A stretch of DNA of 11,712 nt from Verrucomicrobiota bacterium (GTDB taxonomy: Bacteria; Verrucomicrobiota; Verrucomicrobiia; Chthoniobacterales; UBA6821): the NCBI GenBank assembly GCA_016871655.1, contig VHCR01000026.1:1-11712 (forward strand), given 5' to 3'. The notes below the pieces were generated by a model. That model was not told the origin of the DNA. It did no database searches and worked only from the letters and a program-made list of their open reading frames with translations. Both the position numbers and the translations under genes were made by a program. Shown one piece after another: positions 2,234 through 8,959 of this stretch. Within the stretch, counting starts at the first letter, position 1. Every line of letters starts with the position of its first letter.

Positions 2234-3382
2234 ATGATCGACCCACTCTTGATTTTATTTAGAATTTTTCTCATGAAAACTTCCTATCGCGCTCTAGCCC
2301 GCAAATTTCATACTGATTCTGCTACGGCTTGCGAAACCCTGATGGATACAGAGTCAGGCTCGGATTGCTCCTCGGGCGGTATGGAGCATACAGCCGTCGT
2401 CGCAACCCATCGCCTTCCTTGTCTGCATCAGGATTCGCGGCGCCTCGCGACGAATCAGTATGAAATTTGCAGGCTAGCTGTTTTTATTTTCTTATTTCTG
2501 TTTAGCCTCTCTAAAGTAACAGCCTCTCACTTTATTATCATCGATAATGAAACGGGATGTATTTTGCGCGAACAAGGAGCCAACGACAAATTTCCTGTTG
2601 GCAGTCTTTCTAAAATCGCCGTGGCCATCACGCTGCTGGATTGGGCTAAACTGAATGGTAATAGTTTGGATACTGTAGCCGAGGTCCCTGCCCCAACCGC
2701 TCCACAAGGCGAAGGAAACCCTTTAGGCCTCCAAGCTGGCGATCGAATCACCCTTCGTGATCTGCTCTATTTGACACTCCTTCCTTCCGATAGCGAAGCT
2801 TCTTTAACAATTGCTAATTATGTAGGATTAAAACTACCGAATCCTCAAAACCTCGATGGCGTCAGTAATTTTGTGGCCAACATGAATGCGTTGGCTCGTG
2901 AATTAGGAATGAAAAATACGCTTTTCCTCAATTCTGATGGGCTTCCGCCAACCGGTGGGGGATTGCAACCTTACTCCACTGCTGCTGACCTTGCTCGCCT
3001 CACACGCTATGGCTATTCAAAGCCTGGTCTTGCTTTTTATGTTGCTCAAAAATCACGTGAGATTCATATCCAACGTGGCAATAAAATGCTAGGAGCAACA
3101 ATTAACAACACCAACAATTTATTGGGTGTTAATGGGATTGATGGTGTTAAGACAGCGCGCCTAGCCTCTGTAGGAGAATCGATTGTCCTCACCAGCGCTC
3201 GTGATCCCGAAGTGAGAAAAGAAGGGAACACTGTCTACACAACACCACGCCGCATTATTGTTGTTCTTCTTGGAGCTAGTAACCGTGCCGACGAAGGACT
3301 GAAATTGGATCAACAAGGTTGGGAGCTTTATTCTGCCTGGGCTGGTCGTGGACGTCCGACGCGTTCGAGTAGATTTTTGTAA
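2234..3382 (+). CDS. D-alanyl-D-alanine carboxypeptidase-like serine hydrolase (peptidase S11) with in-frame palindromic insertion
   Basis: This is an exported penicillin-binding-type hydrolase, expected to trim peptidoglycan stem peptides in the periplasm. Starting from ATG 2234 (382 residues), the nucleophile motif SxxK is S124-LS-K127. The position of SxN reads S185-D-S187, and the KTG position reads K306-TA. The last two differ from the canonical triad, so full activity is uncertain. The hydrophobic signal core AVFIFLFLFSLSKVTAS is at residues 82-98. Residues 22-81 are encoded by a 180-bp palindromic element. Without it the N-terminus would be MKTSYRAL joined to AVFIFLF, an ordinary signal peptide starting at ATG 2273, which I think is the ancestral start; the protein would then have 309 residues. 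ATG 2381, inside the element, is a third possible start. No separate C-terminal PBP5-like domain is evident. GT9 lies immediately upstream. Confidence 0.85.
   Translation: MIDPLLILFRIFLMKTSYRALARKFHTDSATACETLMDTESGSDCSSGGMEHTAVVATHRLPCLHQDSRRLATNQYEICRLAVFIFLFLFSLSKVTASHFIIIDNETGCILREQGANDKFPVGSLSKIAVAITLLDWAKLNGNSLDTVAEVPAPTAPQGEGNPLGLQAGDRITLRDLLYLTLLPSDSEASLTIANYVGLKLPNPQNLDGVSNFVANMNALARELGMKNTLFLNSDGLPPTGGGLQPYSTAADLARLTRYGYSKPGLAFYVAQKSREIHIQRGNKMLGATINNTNNLLGVNGIDGVKTARLASVGESIVLTSARDPEVRKEGNTVYTTPRRIIVVLLGASNRADEGLKLDQQGWELYSAWAGRGRPTRSSRFL
2295..2476 (+). mobile_element. Palindromic MITE-like element, copy 1, inserted in frame in the hydrolase gene
   Basis: The element runs from TA (2295-2296) to TA (2475-2476). 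Its ends are TAGCCCGCAAATTTCATACT plus GATTC on the left, and on the right the reverse complement with one mismatch. The 25-bp terminal repeats continue as weaker symmetry towards the centre TATGGAGCATA (2380-2390), which is the midpoint of the element, so the whole unit is an imperfect palindrome. It encodes no transposase. Removing 2297-2476 (180 bp, 60 codons) leaves CTC-TA-GCT and restores an uninterrupted signal peptide, so TA is the likely target-site duplication, as for IS630/mariner-type transposition. The frame read by the host gene has no stop within the element. A 97% identical inverted copy lies at 11562-11712. Confidence 0.88.
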
Positions 3383-4846: not shown

Positions 4847-5060
4847 AGGCTGTAGGCTATAGGCTGTAGACTGTAGGTTAAGACAAGCCAACATCGAGCT
4901 TCAGGTTACAGGAAATCAGATGCTATGAATAGTCGAGCAAGAATGAATCTCGCGAGAGCAAGCAAGTTACATAAATATCCTAATGGAATTGATGTGTTAT
5001 AATTTAATTTGCCGTAGGTCTTGCATCGGCCTACAGCCTATAGCCTACAGCCTATAGCCT
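4847..5060. repeat. Heptamer inverted repeat (TAGGCTR type) in the convergent pfkA/DUF2017 gap
   Basis: The left arm (4847-4889) is a run of TAGGCTG/TAGGCTA heptamers with variants TAGACTG and TAGGTTA. The right arm (about 5011-5060) is the complement. The two genes converge here, so the structure could act as a bidirectional terminator or RNA-stabilising hairpin. The right arm contains the stop codon of the DUF2017 gene (5052-5054). Between the arms I see no gene, only a CTCGCGAGAGC string near 4949 and an isolated TGTTATAAT (4995-5003). Confidence 0.8.
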
Positions 5061-6290: not shown

Positions 6291-6319
6291 GCCTGCCAAA
6301 AATGAATTTTTGGACAGGC
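6291..6319 (-). promoter_or_regulatory. Hairpin with short T-rich tail immediately upstream of the ybeY start (possible attenuator)
   Basis: On the minus strand GCCTG(T)CCAAAAAT pairs with ATTTTTGGCAGGC across a GA turn, giving a 13-bp stem with one bulged base. TTTCTT and then ATG follow. The layout resembles a rho-independent terminator or attenuator, or a structure that hides the ribosome-binding region (GGCAGG lies within the stem). Function is inferred from symmetry only. Confidence 0.5.
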
Positions 6320-6321
6320 TA

Positions 6322-6460
6322 AGGTTACAGGTTACAGGTTGCAGGTTACAGGTTAAAATTACTTCAAGTTGAGAAATCGTTTTGAACAGTAATGATATTT
6401 TTTTATTGCTGTCGCGAGAAAGAATTTTTCCTGTAACCTGCAACCTGTAACCTGTAACCT
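6322..6460. repeat. Perfect 31-bp inverted repeat of AGGTTAC heptamers between divergent ybeY and methyltransferase genes
   Basis: The left arm 6322-6352 consists of AGGTTAC, AGGTTAC, AGGTTGC, AGGTTAC and AGG. The right arm 6430-6460 is its exact reverse complement, including the single GC variant. The spacer is 77 bp (6353-6429). Both flanking genes start outward from this region, so their promoters should lie in or beside the repeat. I could not identify a confident -35/-10 pair. Confidence 0.9.
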
Positions 6461-6484
6461 GTTTTGACATTCTCATGTCAAAAC
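6461..6484. promoter_or_regulatory. Perfect 10-bp palindrome across the methyltransferase start codon
   Basis: GTTTTGACAT (6461-6470), TCTC, then ATGTCAAAAC (6475-6484) form a perfect inverted repeat whose right half begins with the ATG start. It could be an operator or a translation-blocking hairpin. Each half contains TTGACA, but no fitting -10 box is seen. Function unproven. Confidence 0.45.
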
Positions 6485-8797: not shown

Positions 8798-8959
8798 TAG
8801 GCTATAAACTGTAGGCTCTAAGCTATAGGAATGTAAATCTGAAGTAAAAGCAGTAAAAGAAAAATTTTTAATTTTTAATGAAAGATTGAAATCTATTACG
8901 ATTTTTTTTAGATTTCACTGCTTGCAACCTACAGCCTATAGCTTACAGTCTATAGGCTA
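8798..8959. repeat. Heptamer inverted repeat (TAGGCTR type) between nuoG and tRNA-Ser
   Basis: The left arm 8798-8829 begins TAGGCTATAAACTGTAGGCT. The right arm 8924-8959 is its imperfect complement, containing CCTACAGCCTATAGC. A second nested pair, AAGCAGT (8849-8855) and ACTGCTT (8917-8923), and a third, GAAATCTA (8888-8895) and TAGATTTC (8909-8916), continue the symmetry, so nearly the whole gap could fold. The right arm ends 4 bases before the tRNA. No confident promoter was found. Confidence 0.8.

Follow-up and report, generated by a model that had tools for sequence, protein, structure and literature searches.

A probable MITE family with YTAR target duplication, found in frame within unrelated genes of Chthoniobacterales genomes

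The closest described systems are the Rickettsia palindromic elements (RPE) and the Wolbachia palindromic repeats, which, according to the accessible text of two papers, are short palindromes with inverted ends that form a hairpin and lie both between genes and in frame within conserved genes (PMC2229807, PMC10969869). The RPE measure 105-146 bp, are present in frame in 19 Rickettsia genes and have their target duplication listed as "?". For the copy in gmk, the host protein is translated and active (both from the available portion of PMC2229807), and the frequency of RPE fusions is called unusual in the accessible part of a 2024 review (PMC10969869). A second group comprises ERIC, YPAL/RU-2, Correia/NEMIS and QMITE, which are bacterial MITEs of 100-400 bp, with some frames fused to hosts. 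As far as the available text describes them, these have other ends and duplications than the family reported here and fewer fusions, mostly to hypothetical proteins or at gene ends (PMC2229807, PMC5896051).

Here, we describe a family from Verrucomicrobiota that very probably is a translated, in-frame MITE, mobilised in trans by a DDE-type transposase, with out-of-frame genic insertions purged and about half of the in-frame ones persisting. It appears to act like RPE while being an unrelated family in another phylum, RPE being known to us by description and not by sequence. With that same limit on the comparison, and set against the parts of the RPE literature available, it differs in adding 180 nt, in having a resolved 4-bp YTAR, in using both strands as coding register and in having hundreds of ends in each of two Verrucomicrobiota genomes. 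The tests made agree with the independent family proposed in a sequence-only reading of this DNA. NCBIfam contains RPE models, and no RPE family was among the NCBIfam models for nine host proteins. Our literature search, which reached few subscription papers, found no MITE or palindrome paper on such a family in Verrucomicrobia or Chthoniobacterales.

The window is a stretch of 11,712 nt, contig 26 of genome G000 (1,797,839 bases in 350 contigs, 86.7% complete), and its features are collected in Table 1. The arms of the first element are 26 nt long and 96% complementary when the target copies are included (2294-2319 and 2452-2477), which matches the 25-bp terminal repeats with one mismatch recognised from the letters alone. 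The net gain is 180 nt and the host frame is free of stops, also as read before. The symmetry claimed for the element holds for the arms and for the hairpin formed by the whole element, and is imperfect in the part between the arms (82/182 in an ungapped mirror match). There is no transposase gene within the element, and the modal length of the family is 182-184, with 25-bp inverted ends.

Table 1. Features of the window and the evidence for each
Feature	Position	Strand	Evidence
YTAR MITE, full length, 176-bp core and two CTAG target copies	2294..2477	+	arms, alignment to copies, fold
CTAG, left target-duplication copy	2294..2297	.	single CTAG in orthologue L052 (G005)
CTAG, right target-duplication copy	2474..2477	.	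single CTAG in orthologue L052 (G005)
Left terminal inverted repeat without target	2298..2319	+	arm match, terminal-repeat matches elsewhere
Right terminal inverted repeat without target, one mismatch	2452..2473	-	arm match, terminal-repeat matches elsewhere
S11 D-Ala-D-Ala carboxypeptidase-like gene, 369 aa including insert, start shared with orthologues	2273..3382	+	Peptidase_S11 match, orthologue alignment
Second element copy, intergenic, 151/182 bases, stops at contig end	11562..11712	-	alignment to first copy

The window also carries a separate repeat type of its genome: intergenic arrays of 7-bp units at 4847-4877 / 5029-5060 and 6314-6355 / 6430-6462 (units AGGCTGT/GCCTACA and ACAGGTT/CCTGTAA), with the first two arrays opposing each other in inverted orientation at a spacing of 67-161 nt. 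The intergenic array at 8798-8829 has a 14-bp unit. In addition, a 28-nt inverted repeat, 89% complementary (286-313 / 468-495), lies between the end of one gene and a QueE-like gene.

Orthologues of the S11 gene in G004 and G005 are 85% and 83% identical to it and both lack the 60 residues, as a check on homologues had been expected to find. They read MKTSYRA/S and then directly LAI, the junction being MKTSYRALAILFLLL in G004 and MKTSYRSLAIFFLLL in G005. In the window gene, taking out the element joins MKTSYRAL to AVFIFLFLF, as predicted. The empty site in the G005 orthologue is one CTAG at the exact position; in G004 it is CTCG. The same alignment places the conserved start codon at ATG 2273 and not, as first read, at ATG 2234. 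In a protein search of 22 genomes, matches to the S11 gene in other genomes begin at query residue 62 to 99, and the genus matches to query residues 9-103 are other element copies. The insert would stretch the n-region of the signal peptide from ~8 to ~68 residues; as the sequence-only reading proposed, this may alter export, or a start at the internal ATG 2381 may bypass the insert.

Further copies are numerous. G000 holds 15 copies aligning over all or nearly all of the length with 89-100% identity, three more that run into contig ends, and several that are degenerate or of variant length. Terminal-repeat matches with three mismatches or fewer number 38 in this genome, against 0 for the reversed control. 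The palindromic mobile element, in frame within its host, is therefore borne out by the arms, the homologues without insert and the additional copies. The two outcomes that the sequence-only reading had named as telling against it were looked for, and the opposite was found: orthologues without the insert, and more copies with the same ends in the genome. Relatives with these ends are metagenome genomes of Chthoniobacterales / Spartobacteria, in the lineage Verrucomicrobiota. Counted with an end pattern of 19 bases, one mismatch being allowed (reversed control 0 in every listed genome), the ends number 197+223 (420) in G002, 257+235 (492) in G003, 13+16 in G000, 10+10 in G005, 3+5 in G004 and 1+1 in G001. 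In the rest of the order Chthoniobacterales, 1 to 3 end-pattern matches were obtained in 10 of 191 genomes, and some of these matches are the ends of elements with other interiors. Elements or ends of the YTAR-CCCGNATA type with unrelated interiors were seen in the order at L197 (G001) 1501-1770 and at L186, L189, L192, L193 and L201. One exact pattern gave 0 matches in viral contigs.

The target was resolved from the flanks. Among the 167 end-bounded elements of the loci retrieved, 97 have the same 4-mer on both flanks (TTAA 47, CTAG 34, CTAA 13, TTAG 3), and in one examined set of elements the flank identity never reaches the fifth base. Among the full-length copies, 76/123 have identical 4-mers and 103/123 have YTAR on both sides; in 47/123 the flanking 4-mers differ, which counts against the explanation favoured here. 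Of the asymmetric targets in these copies, 11 are repeated directly (CTAA/CTAA 9, TTAG/TTAG 2) and a single one is inverted, so the outer bases do not belong to the palindrome. The TA in the middle of YTAR does not vary. This is pertinent to the proposal, made from the sequence, of a TA duplication and IS630/mariner mobilisation. The ends do start and finish with TA, and IS630-type genes (PF13358) are present in three of six genus genomes, as an IS630/Tc1-mariner-type MITE would have it. Against this, the direct duplication is a 4-bp YTAR in which the outer bases match (CTAG at the window's element), PF13358 has no match in G002 and G003, where most copies sit, and the repeats around the PF13358 genes examined are TATAGTCAATTAA, which differ from the element ends. 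Neither the TA duplication nor the IS630 assignment was upheld, and we regard the latter as very unlikely.

The features looked for in a MITE were found as follows: the element is short, transposase-free, and has terminal inverted repeats and a YTAR duplication; an autonomous partner with these ends was not found via PF01609, PF13358, PF13701, PF13359 or NF033540 in six genus genomes, nor via PF03050 in 16 genomes, and the repeats flanking the transposase genes that these searches did find differ in sequence. As partners are often lost, this lowers the MITE claim only a little. Several derivations were considered and set aside. IS1380/piggyBac-like elements are characterised by a 4-bp TTAA-type target and ends starting CC; the six genus genomes gave only one match to PF13701, below cut-off. 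A palindrome of the REP / RAYT type, with no target duplication and a tyrosine transposase, was rejected, as a 4-bp duplication is present here. The YTAR duplication reported for the IS5 family in the accessible text of PMC10359306 fits, but PF13359 has no match in the six genomes of the genus and the PF01609 genes there have other ends; no IS5-type transposase or ends were found in these genomes. The IS701 family shares a 4-bp target duplication, but its end consensus in the available part of PMC2266710 is ---YACT-Y--YR, not CCCGNATATTTCAT, and NF033540 has no match over cut-off in the genus. A PF01609 fragment abutting an element end in G002 (L150) was taken for a truncated transposase next to part of an element. 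On G082 contig 194 (L191/L207, 1-308, at the contig end), the C-terminus of an IS66-type transposase, with one stop, lies ~40 bp from the end of a YTAR element; IS66 was not accepted as the partner, since IS66 jumping into an element explains the adjacency equally well.

How the copies relate to genes was examined in a sample of 123 full-length copies among the matches listed, 17 from G000 and 106 from elsewhere, chiefly G002 and G003. For each of them the empty site was reconstructed, and a copy was called genic when the ORF was at least 490 nt long with at least 75 nt beyond the site. The 490-nt threshold was picked after viewing the list, and 300, 600 and 900 nt were run as alternatives. 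At 490 nt, 29/123 copies are genic, compared with 1526/2194 random YTAR sites in the same loci. All 29 lie in the register in which YTA is a Leu codon followed by R, which is the register of 839/1526 random sites (687 fall in the other one). The stop-free host frame, whose scoring inside ORFs had been suggested earlier, is found in 27/29 genic copies, against 412/1526 simulated cases (27% expected) with a random family member placed at the site. The alternatives give 31/39 vs 435/1642 (300 nt), 24/25 vs 404/1430 (600 nt) and 13/14 vs 287/1088 (900 nt). Because the copies share descent, the significance of these excesses is overstated. The ORF is broken by 2/29 genic copies, including one in the AsnB-like gene of L118. 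ORFs of 300-489 nt hold 10 further copies, of which 6 break the ORF, and where a copy in the other register lies close to a gene end, the last codons of the gene are lost. The earlier idea that the insert is tolerated because it occupies the n-region of a signal peptide agrees with 16/29 genic copies lying within the first 45 codons, but other in-frame copies lie mid-gene, for example in PheT, Dxr and GlnD.

The whole element folds as one hairpin (-88.6 kcal/mol, z -7.46; 0/200 shuffles as good), and a strong hairpin is formed by 28/28 diverged copies (z -3.1 to -13.7). The byp elements of yeast mitochondria are skipped by the ribosome, and the insert might likewise be skipped, or be removed from the RNA, with the hairpin joining the ends and the host protein being normal. 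The folding of all diverged copies is in keeping with this, but neither process needs a register or an open frame, yet 29/29 genic copies are in register and 27/29 are free of stops; moreover, conservation of the consensus fold is limited to the outer 20 bp plus a pair of small inner helices. Removal or skipping is thus highly improbable. RNA structure as the selected feature was rejected on the same consensus, with two-sided changes at the ends explained by the duplicated target.

An insertion process that ignores genes, followed by selection, can be put into numbers. On that assumption, ~215 insertions into genes would be expected from the 94 non-genic copies, and 58 of these would be in frame with an open reading; 27/58 such insertions persist (~47%), compared with 2/157 of the others (~1.3%). 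Selection after insertion suffices, and a preference of the transposase is not needed. As for the element's own frame, the forward register is open in 23 of the 28 diverged copies, the reverse in 19 and both in 15, where a column-sampling null gives 54%, 54% and 28%; for copies that share descent, this is only suggestive of selection on that frame. It is possible, though doubtful, that the family is adapted to genes, and that selection acting on the element itself maintains its 3n length, its Leu-accepting ends and frames free of stops on both strands as a coding camouflage. If so, an insertion could be survived at every YTA codon and in both orientations, and the niche of the transposon would be the protein interior, with N-terminal leaders and linkers favoured.

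The hosts are diverse. Pfam matches over the curated cut-off were obtained for 19/26 scanned genic ORFs (none in 7): GlnD, an FtsX-type permease, PheT, two PMT-type transferases, FGE-sulfatase, OprB, Dxr, FUSC_2, BPD_transp_2, a TMEM260-like protein, two N_methyl pseudopilins, a TsaD-like protein, prephenate dehydratase (PheA), LipB, LMWPc, an AsnB-type amidotransferase and the S11 gene. NCBIfam names TsaB, LipB, Dxr, PheT and GlnD. In Dxr the insert divides the N-terminal domain, and the shorter ORF of RnpA is also split by the element. A search of 5.8 billion proteins with the insert only gave 12, 8 and 18 matches, to 36 distinct proteins. These include IspD, squalene/phytoene synthase, FolC (partial, beginning inside the element), NAD synthetase, 5-FTHF cyclo-ligase, an HflX-type GTPase, shikimate kinase, TrmD, and a pseudouridine synthase and PanC, both with the element at the C-terminus. 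Tandem in-frame pairs are seen in prephenate dehydratase (L032), in L146, and in the database NAD synthetase P0021 and cyclo-ligase P0022; the tandem copies in L032 and L146 have one target between them in common. In the pseudopilin-like genes L109 5754-6770 and L143 3057-3980, the insert precedes the prepilin methylation motif and opposite strands of the element are read, so these insertions into leader regions are probably independent.

In G002 the only PheT found bears the insert, and PheT without it was recovered from 8/10 other genomes (7 of 8 in the alignment); in G000 and G004 the PheT search returned element matches only. The sole PheT match of G004, which is 96% complete, is an element copy. 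Two strains have the PheT insertion at the same site, with 725/788 residues identical outside the insert (92%) and 61/61 inside; their Dxr proteins are identical at 367/395 residues outside and 49/61 inside. As both inserts are shared by the two strains, they outlive strain divergence. The perfect identity of the PheT insert is what an adaptive peptide, useful to its hosts instead of tolerated, might show, but the Dxr insert is less conserved than its host, the hosts are unrelated, the two strands give different peptides and genes are strongly depleted in copies, which leaves this reading with very little probability. Least credible is that the assembly or binning of repeat-rich metagenome genomes produced the element as an artefact: all named holders are metagenome assemblies and three G000 contigs end in copies, but an artefact is at odds with the register and frame excess, with the exact single-CTAG empty site, and with insert-bearing proteins that recur on several contigs (P0001 2, P0003 3, P0013 2) and in more than one source.

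A translated, trans-mobilised MITE would work as follows. The element would be a non-autonomous DNA transposon with a 176-bp core and 25-bp inverted ends, whose insertion duplicates a 4-bp YTAR and so adds 180 nt. Whichever strand is read, its ends leave a single codon register open (YTA-RCC-CG.., in which the target supplies the Leu codon), and many copies are stop-free in that register. A transposase supplied in trans, probably of the DDE type because of the target duplication, would insert it at YTAR sites within and between genes. Insertion into a gene in the wrong register would halt translation and be purged by selection; in register, it would be translated as ~60 extra residues, and about half of such inserts would persist. 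Persisting inserts appear to sit in termini, linkers and some domain interiors, including those of single-copy essential enzymes, and the host proteins presumably retain their function.

In the parts of the literature available, in-frame palindromic elements are described mainly from Rickettsiales (Rickettsia and relatives). The occurrence in Verrucomicrobiota of a family unrelated to these, with close relatives that have empty sites, means that the process recurs and becomes measurable. Each copy serves as a natural insertion scan, 60 residues long, of an enzyme, and the enzymes include the essential PheT, Dxr and NAD synthetase. For annotators, it is a warning that homologous 60-residue segments in unrelated proteins may be a transposon and not a domain.
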